This document shows positions 55,365-58,804 of a stretch of 64,000 nucleotides of DNA, one piece after another (within the stretch, counting starts at the first letter, position 1; every line of letters begins with the position of its first letter). The notes under the pieces were generated by a model. The model was not told the DNA's origin. It made no database searches and saw only the letters and a list, made by a program, of their open reading frames with translations. This DNA comes from Jannaschia faecimaris (GTDB taxonomy: Bacteria > Pseudomonadota > Alphaproteobacteria > Rhodobacterales > Rhodobacteraceae), in NCBI RefSeq assembly GCF_900107415.1, contig NZ_FNPX01000003.1, positions 62,001 to 126,000 on the forward strand, in the 5' to 3' direction. The translations under genes and the position numbers were made by a program.

Positions 55365-55446
55365 TCGACCGCGACACCCAGCCCCCTTCCACCGCCCGCA
55401 CCCCCGGTGTATCCCCGGCCAAACCCCTGAACACAGGCCGCCCCAA

Positions 55447-57249
55447 ATGACGACCGATCTCGCCCGCATTCGCAACTTTTCCATCGTCGCCCACATCGAC
55501 CACGGCAAATCCACACTGGCCGACCGGTTGATTCAGGAGACGAACACCGTTGCCCTGCGCGACATGAAGGAACAGATGCTCGACGCCATGGATATCGAGC
55601 GGGAGCGTGGCATCACCATCAAGGCCAACACCGTCCGGATCCAGTTCACCGCCGCTGACGGGCTGGAATACACGCTTAACCTGATCGACACGCCGGGCCA
55701 TGTGGACTTCGCCTACGAGGTCAGCCGCTCCATGCGCGCCGTCGAAGGCTCGCTTCTGGTCGTCGACTCCACCCAGGGGGTTGAGGCGCAGACGCTCGCC
55801 AACGTCTACCAAGCGATCGACGCCGACCATGAAGTCGTCCCCGTTCTCAACAAGATCGACCTGCCCGCATCCGAGCCGGACCGCGTGCGCGAACAGATCG
55901 AGGATGTGATCGGCATCGACGCCTCCGAGGCCCTGCTGGTGTCCGCCAAGACGGGGCAGGGCATTCGCGAGACGTTGCAGGCCGTCGTCGACCGCCTGCC
56001 CGCGCCCAAGGGCGACATCGACGCGCCGCTCAAGGCCATGCTGGTGGACAGCTGGTACGACAGCTACCTCGGCGTCATCGTCCTTGTCCGCATCATCGAC
56101 GGCAAGCTGCGCAAGGGCGACCGCGTGCGCTTCATGTCCAACAACACCGTGCATCACGTCGACCGCATCGGCGTGTTCCGCCCCCCCATGACCGAGATCG
56201 ACGAGCTTGGCCCCGGCGAGATCGGCTTCCTGACCGCGTCGATCAAACAGGTCCGCGACACCCGCGTCGGCGACACGATCACCCACGAGAAAAAGGGCTG
56301 CGACAAGGCTCTGCCGGGCTTCAAGCCGTCGCAACCCGTGGTTTTCTGCGGCCTGTTCCCGGTGGATTCCGCGCTGTTCGAGGACTTGCGCGATGCCATC
56401 GACAAGCTGGCCCTCAACGACGCGTCCTTCTCGTTCGAAGTGGAATCCTCGGCCGCGCTGGGCTTCGGCTTCCGCTGCGGTTTCCTCGGGCTGCTGCACC
56501 TGGAGGTCATCCGTGACCGGATCGAGCGTGAATATGATATCGACCTGATCACGACGGCCCCGTCGGTCGTCTACCACGTCCACATGCGCGACGGCACGAT
56601 GGAGGAGTTGCACAACCCCGCCGACATGCCCGACCTGACCCACGTCGACCACGTGGAGGAGCCGCGCATCAAGGCCACCATCCTTGTGCCCGACGAATAC
56701 CTGGGCGACGTGCTGAAACTCTGCCAGGACCGGCGCGGCATCCAGCTTGACCTGACCTACGCTGGCCCCCGCGCCATGGTTGTCTACGACCTGCCGCTGA
56801 ACGAGGTGGTGTTCGACTTCTACGACCGCCTGAAATCGGTGACCAAGGGCTACGCCTCCTTCGACTACCAGATGATCGGGTACCGGGAGGATGCGCTGGT
56901 CAAGATGTCCGTGCTGGTCAACGAGGAGCCGGTGGACGCGCTTTCGATGATGGTCCACCGCGACCGCGCCGAAACCCGCGGCCGCGCCATGGTCGAGAAG
57001 CTGAAAGAGCTGATCCCCCGCCACATGTTCAAGATCCCGATCCAGGCCGCCATCGGCGGCCGCGTGGTGGCCCGCGAAACCCTGTCAGCGATGCGCAAGG
57101 ACGTGACGGCCAAGTGCTATGGCGGAGATGCGACCCGGAAGAAGAAGCTTCTGGAGAAGCAGAAGGCGGGTAAGAAGAAGATGCGGCAGTTCGGGAAGGT
57201 GGAGATACCTCAGTCGGCGTTTATTAATGCGCTGAAGATGGATGGGTGA
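55447..57249 (+). CDS. lepA: Elongation factor 4 (LepA)
   Basis: A 600-residue translational GTPase that acts on stalled or mistranslocated ribosomes. It has the G1 motif [45 protein letters not shown] in [15 protein letters not shown] and the LepA-specific C-terminal end [21 protein letters not shown] 55447 matches the family start; the open frame runs back into the MDR gene. Beyond its stop the base composition changes sharply. Confidence 0.97.
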
Positions 57250-57377
57250 AAGCTGACAATCTTCAGTGCGGGTGGGCGGCAGCGTCTTTCGCGGAAAGGC
57301 GCGTGCCCACTCGGTTGAGAATAGGGTGGTAACGCTTCTAGTCGGAACACTTCGATGCTTGGAAGGTGAGTGGGTGA

Positions 57378-58403
57378 ATGGTGCGAGAACCAACGATCAG
57401 GCTGCCGCATTACTCTCATCTGAAGGCGCTGTCCAAGTTCACGAAAGAAATTCTTGAGATCGACGAACTTGACGAGTTTCTAGTCGATACGGGGCGCACT
57501 CGATTTTTCACGCCAACATTTATGATGATCGCAGCAAAAGCCTGCCGAAGAAGAAGTCGTCTCTATCCCAGAGAAAAGATGCTGTACCAAGGCCTAGGGC
57601 GCCACGAGTACGCAAATAACCTTGGTTTTTCTCGTGCGCTCAAAATTGCTGGAAATAAATTTCCACAAGGTGCATTTGGTGGGCGCAGTTACATTCCAAT
57701 GAGCCGGTTTGGGCGCGACCACATTGCGAAGATTTCTACGGATCATGGAATAGAGTTTGGAGACGCGATTCAGATAAAATGTGAGGACGTTGCTCAGATC
57801 ATTTCTCAGGGTAAGTCGGAATCGCTTCGGCACAGTCTTTCTGTTTCGTTCCGAGAGATATTTCGAAATGTCTTTGAGCATGGGGAAACGGACACCGCTG
57901 GTTTTTGTGCTCAATATTGGCCTGCAGCAGACCGCGTTGAGATTTGCATTGCTGATCGAGGAATTGGGGTAAATAGATCCCTTCAGTCGAGTAAATACAC
58001 GATCCCAGAGAATGATCGCCAGGCGCTTTACTATGCGTTAATGCTGGGCGTGTCGTCCAAGGCTTGGCGTGCAAAAAAGAAGAGGGCCTCATTCAAGAGC
58101 CAGTGGGACAATTCTGGATTTGGTCTATTTTTTGCACACCAGCTATTCCGGAAGTTCGGACATTTCTTCATCGCGTCAGGTAATACCGCACTGCATCTGA
58201 CTGACGGAAAGTCGATGTCATATGATTGCGACGTCGAGGGGACAGTCGTGTCTATGTCTATTGATCTATCGAGTATTTTGGAAATTGAGGAAACCGTTCA
58301 TGCCATAGGAGCGAAGGCGTTTGAAGTGAAGAAGCGGATAGGGGTGAAGAGTCTGGACTATGAGAGTGTTGTGGCGTTTATATCTGAAGACCAGCAAGCA
58401 TAG
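57378..58403 (+). CDS. Predicted STAS-like plus GHKL-ATPase protein in AT-richer DNA
   Basis: A 341-residue protein not assigned to a named family. The C-terminal half has the Bergerat (GHKL) ATP-binding boxes: N box SFREIFRNVFEHG (Glu160, Asn164), G1 box ICIADRGIGV (Asp193) and G2 box SGFGLFFAHQLF (near 248). The N-terminal part (about residues 30-95) reads FLVDTGRTRFFTPTFMMIA and later NNLGFSRALKI, reminiscent of the STAS-like domains that precede GHKL ATPases in some stand-alone regulators. There is no dimerisation helix or H box of a true histidine kinase. The gene and its 128-base leader are clearly less GC-rich than all neighbours. It may be a transferred regulatory or defence-type gene; its function is unknown. 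Confidence 0.7.
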   Translation: MVREPTIRLPHYSHLKALSKFTKEILEIDELDEFLVDTGRTRFFTPTFMMIAAKACRRRSRLYPREKMLYQGLGRHEYANNLGFSRALKIAGNKFPQGAFGGRSYIPMSRFGRDHIAKISTDHGIEFGDAIQIKCEDVAQIISQGKSESLRHSLSVSFREIFRNVFEHGETDTAGFCAQYWPAADRVEICIADRGIGVNRSLQSSKYTIPENDRQALYYALMLGVSSKAWRAKKKRASFKSQWDNSGFGLFFAHQLFRKFGHFFIASGNTALHLTDGKSMSYDCDVEGTVVSMSIDLSSILEIEETVHAIGAKAFEVKKRIGVKSLDYESVVAFISEDQQA

Positions 58404-58495
58404 TGCCCGTAAGTTGCCAACGTCCCCCCTCCCTTGACCCAAATCAACACCTCCACGCCGCCCCACCCCCATACTCCCCCAAAAGGGAGATCCAC

Positions 58496-58804
58496 ATGAC
58501 CGACACCAAGACCCTCCTCCTCGCCCGCCGCAAGGAACTGACCGGCGATATCGCCCGGATCGAGGATCAGCTCGACGACCCGACCCCGAAGGATTGGGAT
58601 GATGCCGCATCCGAGCGGCAGGGGGACGAGGTGTTGCAATCGCTCGGCCTCCACGACCGGACCGAGATCCGCGCCATCGACGCCGCCCTTAAGCGGATCG
58701 AAGACGGCTCCTACGGGACCTGCGCCAAATGCGGCAATCCGATCGCCGCTGAGCGGCTGGAGGCCGTGCCCACCGCCGCGCTCTGCCGCACCTGCGCCAC
58801 CTGA
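58496..58804 (+). CDS. DksA/TraR family zinc-finger protein
   Basis: A 102-residue protein. An N-terminal coiled coil carries the DksA-type tip DxxDxA (Asp33, Asp36, Ala38 in KDWDDAASE). A C-terminal zinc finger follows, with Cys76/Cys79 (CAKCGNP) and Cys97/Cys100 (CRTCAT). It is shorter than E. coli DksA (151 residues) and resembles the small TraR/DksA proteins that bind the RNA polymerase secondary channel. AAAGGGAGATCC precedes the ATG. A bidirectional hairpin follows. Confidence 0.88.
   Translation: MTDTKTLLLARRKELTGDIARIEDQLDDPTPKDWDDAASERQGDEVLQSLGLHDRTEIRAIDAALKRIEDGSYGTCAKCGNPIAAERLEAVPTAALCRTCAT

Follow-up and report, generated by a model that had tools for sequence, protein, structure and literature searches.

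The closest described systems for the gene examined here, which lies directly behind lepA in Jannaschia faecimaris, are the CapK and VapK switches. According to PMC13373217 (EMBO J 2026), these switches control immune operons or a toxin. CapK, which is composed of a helix-turn-helix (HTH), a STAS and a GHKL domain, is activated by single-stranded DNA (ssDNA) and phosphorylates the STAS repressor CapS, and all 443 CapK homologs have capS next downstream. VapK is a STAS-GHKL protein without HTH and is found in vapKSC operons, which gave protection of ~2 logs against one phage and of which 103 of 289 (36%) have another immune gene within 10 kb. Sensing of ssDNA was demonstrated for CapK and proposed for VapK, and the ssDNA-stacking aromatic residue is W68 in CapK and F54 in VapK (same source). 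The window, i.e., the whole 64-kb stretch of DNA analyzed in this study (NZ_FNPX01000003.1, positions 62,001 to 126,000) and the one to which all positions below refer, contains on its forward strand a gene for a 341-residue STAS-GHKL protein, termed orphan here for lack of a DUF4325-type partner gene, which is probably a horizontally exchanged, defense-type kinase switch.

Orphan STAS-GHKL protein and its described relatives

The nearest described layout for the window protein, likened by description, is that of CapK/VapK, which supplies the name that the initial annotation could not give. Similar to VapK, the window protein combines STAS (a fold assigned with moderate confidence) and GHKL domains without HTH. 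Different from vapK, which has the genes for the STAS substrate VapS and the PIN-domain toxin VapC adjacent, its gene is flanked by lepA and a gene that we take to encode a TraR/DksA-type zinc-finger protein. The orphan group also has an added conserved tail, a difference from VapK judged by the published description of the latter. CapK also has a STAS-GHKL core, preceded by an HTH at the N terminus, and its gene is followed by capS, whereas the window protein begins with the STAS-like domain and the TraR/DksA-type gene comes next. The anti-sigma kinases SpoIIAB and RsbW have the GHKL fold in common with the window protein, which differs from them by its fused STAS-like domain, its tail and the lack of a partner gene.

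Homologs were collected from genome contigs, where 123 of 139 pattern matches were confirmed and the 80 best of these were retained, and from viral contigs, where the window protein alone as query gave no match and an alignment query gave 17 further loci, resulting in 97 loci in total. Loci and genomes are labeled L and G, respectively. Eighty-four of the 97 loci and the window protein formed an alignment of 85 sequences; nine short or interrupted members, the truncated L121 and, by our own judgement, the near-duplicates L177, L197, and L207 were dropped. A fold from the single window sequence was useless, with a predicted local distance difference test (pLDDT) score of 34, and was superseded by an AlphaFold model from the 85 sequences (pLDDT 89.9, predicted template modeling score 0.90).

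The model predicts a two-domain fold, STAS-like followed by GHKL, in agreement with the fused layout that had been read from the sequence at first. Its residues 102–301 superimposed on SpoIIAB (1l0o_A) with a Z score of 12.2 over 136 residues of the 141-residue chain and a root-mean-square deviation (rmsd) of 2.9, and RsbW matched with a Z score of 8.7. The predicted ATPase/kinase domain (residues 102–299, 57681..58274) is thus placed in the GHKL superfamily, SpoIIAB type, with a Bergerat fold containing N, G1, and G2 boxes. Residues E160, R163, N164, E167, and H168 of the N box EIFRNVFEH (residues 160–168, 57855..57881) were invariant in the 85-sequence alignment, as were D193, G195, and G197 of G1 and G247 and G249 of G2, so that the initial annotation was right to call the three boxes intact. 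In total, 18 alignment columns were invariant over these diverse sequences, the ATP-site motifs included. The comparison with GHKL models that had been proposed returned Pfam HATPase_c_2 (E = 5e-6), whose 26.9 bits were slightly below the cut-off of 27.4. The same Pfam scan of the window protein gave no match to a histidine-kinase dimerization domain, also as initially noted, and no sequence match to STAS models. In addition, phrog_3364, a PHROG of unknown function, matched the window protein at 2.5e-20.

For the N-terminal domain, residues 5–94 of the model matched RsbS (Z score 7.3, 87 residues, rmsd 3.1) and residues 2–95 matched the STAS domain of SLC26A7 (Z score 7.3, 87 residues); these were the only 2 of 50 structural-match rows confined to this domain. 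Foldseek, with the full-length model as query, listed several STAS chains at E values of 0.25 or worse. As the Z score was only 7.3 over 87 residues, the predicted STAS-like fold of residues 1–95 (57378..57662) is graded as moderate. Y78 (85 of 85) and F84 (84 of 85) are conserved aromatic residues of this part. At the start of helix 2, the expected site of the phosphoserine of anti-anti-sigma factors, whose equivalence to the SpoIIAA/CapS serine was deduced from the helix position and not from a structural alignment, residue 46 was proline in all 85 sequences, and columns 44–50 contained no conserved serine or threonine. The C-terminal tail (residues 300–341, 58275..58400), a feature of the orphan group, has two conserved serine columns (78 and 75 of 85 sequences).

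STAS-GHKL genes paired with a DUF4325-type gene (e.g., L212, L214, L216, L218 and the phage loci L009 and L010) are homologous to the orphans over about residues 5–299. hhalign matched the orphan profile with that of ten such paired proteins at 99.7% (E = 1.3e-26, 268 columns). They differ in having the DUF4325-type gene directly downstream and in lacking the orphan tail, as the match stops near residue 299. In a tree of 99 sequences, 89 orphans were split from the ten DUF4325-paired proteins with a support of 0.929. The DUF4325-paired proteins as one clade were rejected, as they were not monophyletic under the rooting used and only the split between orphans and others was supported. A hidden Markov model (HMM) of the DUF4325-type, VapS-like partner found no match in the 97 loci up to E = 10, although a very divergent or more distant STAS protein could escape it; in the control it recovered DUF4325 in 9 of 9 loci, five of which contained training members. 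The same HMM gave no match over the own genome. These results add to the CapK/VapK-type switches a large group of proteins that have no DUF4325-type gene as a partner.

Hotspot at the 3′ side of lepA

The lepA gene (55444..57249), the anchor of the hotspot described below, was present in 20 of 20 genus genomes, and LepA of the 19 other genomes was 90–96% identical to that of the window. The STAS-GHKL open reading frame (ORF; 57378..58403) starts 128 bases after lepA, is preceded by a Shine-Dalgarno-like GGAAGGTGA (57361..57369) 8 nt ahead of its ATG, and ends 92 bases ahead of the ATG of the TraR/DksA-type gene (58496..58804), a right flank of normal GC. The frame of the latter was listed from a GTG at 58403; the ATG at 58496 was taken as its start and 58804 as its stop. 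The GC profile dropped from ~0.64 to 0.47–0.51 across 57.25–58.5 kb and then recovered. With 0.477, the STAS-GHKL gene had the lowest GC, and none of 1260 sampled windows of equal length (1026 bp, step 50 bp, over the whole 64 kb) was as low. At third codon positions, its GC was 0.488 vs. 0.885 for lepA, whose overall GC was 0.633. The gene is real and foreign in composition, and an AT-rich gene of foreign composition next to lepA, as first described, is confirmed. The AT-rich interval had been given as 57250–58403, of which the ORF occupies 57378–58403; the first 128 bases are non-coding and carry a hairpin.

The spread of the gene is patchy. It was carried by 3 of 20 genus genomes, in each of them directly behind lepA, and a homolog at E ≤ 1e-10 was found in 11 of 394 sampled family genomes. 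The close relatives among these 11, those of the own genome, G118 (55%) and G314 (53%), were all at lepA, and so were the nine closest named loci, L113–L121, of which L113 is the place in G018 and L115 that in G314. Counted as distinct places, 12 of 12 closest relatives (identity of at least 46%) were at lepA, and a search for lepA in the flanking DNA of the other 88 loci (identity up to 34%) gave no match. The eight intact lepA-linked sequences formed a clade in the 99-sequence tree (support 0.997). The window allele was 56 and 50% identical to those of two congeners and 46–54% identical to those of nine other genomes; for LepA residues 332–601, the identities were 92–94% within the genus and 87–92% for the other genomes compared with the window. 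In the gene tree, the alleles of the three Jannaschia genomes were not grouped, their common ancestor spanning 8 of 12 sequences, and the three Jannaschia LepA were grouped in the LepA tree with a support of only 0.139.

Low GC behind lepA was also found in other genomes. An AT-rich stretch, defined as 500 bp with GC at least 0.10 under the 70th percentile of its own locus and starting no more than 500 bp from the lepA stop, followed lepA in 14 of the 19 loci from the genus and in 22 of the 38 from the family; of the control windows 2–3.5 kb further on, 1 of 38 (genus) and 1 of 76 (family) contained such a stretch. L051 and L074 were too short for this count, and the 39 family loci were mostly those closest in LepA rather than a random draw. 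Across the family, the 3′ side of lepA is a hotspot of small AT-rich modules, most of which comprise one or two genes. The insertion in the window, which had been taken for an isolated single-gene event, is therefore one of many. Of 60 loci, 33 had low-GC frames of at least 120 amino acid residues behind lepA. These frames fell into 31 groups by sequence, which include pairs from one insert and possible non-genes; L111, one of the 60, had been chosen for carrying the gene.

Pfam was searched with ten cargo proteins of seven genus loci, and PADLOC with nine of these and the SIR2-type protein of L058. Judged by these matches, much of the scanned cargo is of defense type: SIR2-type candidates matched PDC-S25 (3e-72) and ThsA (3e-20), an OLD-like ATPase (AAA_15/AAA_21) matched AriA (1e-25), a Fic protein matched SoFic (2e-21), and a nucleotidyltransferase (NTP_transf_2) matched PDC-M70A (2e-28). 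Moreover, SocA_Panacea (5e-18) and SLFN_AlbA_2 (1e-11) cargo was identified. The cargo of L061 was 78% identical to that of L058, and L109 repeated the Panacea pair of L048. L047 contained two modules, the first of which is presumably DUF4160-like, with a second lepA 3′ end between them (44 of 53 bases). The hotspot is compact and easy to survey, and its many small genes of unknown function are candidate defense or toxin-antitoxin systems.

SCC elements sit at the 3′ end of rlmH. Similar to these, the cargo here adjoins the 3′ end of the conserved lepA and, as in L047, a copy of that end lies between modules; different from them, no recombinase was seen in the insert of the window. PA4541 of Pseudomonas aeruginosa is presumably a protease gene and not the EF4 gene. 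An integrative and conjugative element of this species lies between PA4541, called lepA in the report concerned, and clpB, inserted after tRNA-Lys (PMC9495688). Core-gene-anchored defense hotspots are known from Escherichia coli and P. aeruginosa (PMC10121019, PMC10250203). They are reported to carry variable defense cargo at fixed chromosomal places, as here; the anchor here is lepA, the inserts are very small, and among the genus loci a putative large recombinase gene was recognized only in L046. No published description of an exchange hotspot at lepA was found at the level of titles and abstract openings.

A hairpin element (57270..57317) just past the lepA stop, in the non-coding 5′ portion of the insert, scored 65.2 bits with the covariance model R1, being itself among the 14 training sequences. 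The DNA fold of 57200–57380 had a z value of −2.31, and an Rfam scan of 57000–58600 gave no match at E ≤ 1. In the own genome, the hairpin was the sole R1 match at E ≤ 1 among the 150 of 2478 candidates that were scored. Among 60 lepA loci, 16 had 17 matches below E = 1e-4; 14 of these loci are the source of the model. A hairpin unique to lepA was ruled out, as matches were found in 7 of 20 genus genomes, those in G004, G014, and G019 being weaker and away from lepA. A clear second copy of the own lepA end was found near lepA in 5 of 59 loci (L047, L050, L061, L082, and L092); L105, with a strong score at +3344, was omitted as too far, and L049, L054, and L056 were barely above the null. A degenerate second lepA end ahead of the window gene was dropped, as its score of 25 equaled the shuffled maximum of 25 and the best place was elsewhere.

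Three further observations concern the structure of lepA loci. In 10 of 59 loci (L050, L072, L074, L077, L080, L086, L089, L095, L098, and L105), an inverted copy of the last bases of lepA, scoring above the shuffled maximum, lies straight after the stop and ahead of the hairpin. The corresponding arm in the window is short and does not exceed the null. In L114 (1383–4364) of Celeribacter ethanolicus, lepA is inverted relative to a neighboring gene, which we take to be glyA-like; the 3′ end of lepA adjoins an AT-rich ORF, and its 5′ end the STAS-GHKL gene. In L046 (1161–2840; genus genome G004), a gene ~1 kb behind lepA, presumably for a large serine recombinase and the only one of its kind among the genus loci, is followed by a transfer-type gene.

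Possible role and alternative explanations

There is an even chance that the gene is laterally exchanged cargo of the lepA hotspot and encodes an orphan STAS-GHKL kinase switch with a damage- or infection-sensing mechanism. Sensing of infection or DNA damage and action by phosphorylation is the best inference from CapK/VapK. A damage signal, e.g., ssDNA from phage infection, would switch on the ATPase/kinase by binding between its STAS-like part and its GHKL domain. The active kinase would phosphorylate a serine, either in its own tail or in an unlinked host protein, and phosphorylation would halt growth or phage replication. Kinase activity, ssDNA sensing, a tail serving as phospho-acceptor and an anti-phage effect would all be expected by this analogy. 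A defense-type element had also been suggested initially; defense-type cargo at the same site in other genomes is in keeping with it, and the role of this gene itself would follow from the analogy. The links of the wider family to DISARM-type, helicase and DrmA-type genes, which are described below, also count in favor of such a role.

Several results weigh against this reading. Given that the STAS loop has no conserved serine or threonine and that no substrate gene is adjacent, the CapK/VapK chemistry is not directly transferable. In the window tail, the conserved serine columns are occupied by Glu329 and Val332, and Ser330 is one column off. No PADLOC enrichment was found near the distant homologs (L122–L192), with 153 model families for 125 near proteins vs. 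163 for 106 far proteins, counted as matched model families and not as proteins; the survey of homologs asked for initially thus found no general link to defense genes, and the closest relatives all beside lepA. For one protein of L044 and for the scanned cargo proteins of L050 and L056, neither Pfam nor PADLOC gave a match at E ≤ 0.01. Four of the 12 lepA-linked copies (G018, G012, G314, and Palleronia L121) have interrupted frames. Finally, Phaeobacter with G118 and Pseudorhodobacter with a Paracoccaceae metagenome-assembled genome were sister pairs in both the gene and the LepA trees. Because these pairs agree, the history of the gene is not purely one of recent transfer, and part of it may be vertical with losses. 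Transfer, as proposed in the initial annotation, is favored by the patchy spread and the ungrouped alleles, and opposed by the agreeing pairs and by the place at lepA of all 12 close relatives.

A more specific form of the kinase-switch reading is doubtful: a widespread, partnerless one-gene immune switch, combining sensor, kinase and effector, of which one Rhodobacteraceae lineage would move only via a defense-cassette hotspot at the lepA 3′ end, free of integrase. No partner gene would be needed, because the phospho-acceptor would be in its own conserved serine tail. If true, the lepA 3′ end would be an undescribed exchange site without its own integrase.

It is unlikely that the protein is a host stress or sigma-factor regulator in the role of RsbW/SpoIIAB, in which a sigma factor would be bound by the GHKL domain and set free by the STAS-like domain fused to it. 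SpoIIAB is indeed the nearest solved fold, and the top Pfam model is HATPase_c_2, which we take to cover RsbW-type proteins. However, the gene is patchy in the genus and the sampled family and is AT-rich, it has relatives on phages and plasmids, and the STAS phospho loop lacks a conserved serine or threonine in the 85 sequences.

Quite unlikely is the possibility that the protein serves a DrmA/YprA-type helicase defense as its ATP-dependent regulatory half, acting in trans or left after loss of the helicase. The DrmA model PDLC02567 (1750 positions) matched 73 of the 85 members, the window protein over positions 70–212, which suggests fusions of the STAS-GHKL protein with DrmA. In Sulfitobacter L132 (96–7999), a DISARM-type run of DrmMI, DrmA, and DrmB genes is followed 61 bp on by an orphan STAS-GHKL gene; this was the one locus with DrmA and DrmB identified, neighbors having been scanned in part of the loci. 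In L153, L186, and L187, the gene abuts a helicase gene with SngC, BrxH, Druantia, and DrmA-type matches. By neighbor clustering, however, the helicase group abuts the gene in just 4 of 97 loci, the three above and L162, where the helicase-group frame is upstream and its scanned part matched nothing. Moreover, drmA and drmB are not beside the window gene, MZB/DUF1998-type matches are lacking in the own genome, and the 18 columns that include the ATP-site motifs are invariant in the 85 sequences. The text of a paper on YprA helicases (PMC12458937) does not contain the terms HATPase, STAS or histidine kinase.

A non-defensive selfish or decaying insert, carried along by recombination at lepA and of no present use, is rather improbable: it would account for the interrupted frames and for the lack of general defense enrichment near distant homologs, but the copy in the window has an uninterrupted frame preceded by a Shine-Dalgarno-like site, and the 18 columns are invariant over diverse sequences.

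Neighbors in the wider family

According to the record titles, the hosts of the partnerless group include Pseudomonadota, Bacteroidota, and cyanobacteria, and members were also found in plasmids and phages. The GC of the gene was more than 5 points below that of its own locus in 65 of 97 cases, and the most frequent neighbor family occurred in no more than 9 of 97 loci. Plasmid homologs were L006, L007, and L008, of which L006 lies beside short pAgo and ZacB/C genes. Further recurrent insertion places of orphan STAS-GHKL genes were seen by eye: the genes flanking those of L131, L141, and L190, which represent three genera, are similar, and those of L150 and L159, in two Celeribacter, lie beside a presumably ArfB-like gene.

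In 8 of 16 DUF4325 loci (L212, L214, L216–L220, and L225), the STAS-GHKL gene and the DUF4325 gene are followed by a gene for a protein of 145–190 amino acid residues. As judged by eye, some of these proteins seem to have a membrane helix. The three genes may form a VapKSC-like system with another effector. Finally, the Streptococcus and Bacteroides phages of L009 and L010 carry a STAS-GHKL gene with a DUF4325-type gene straight after it.
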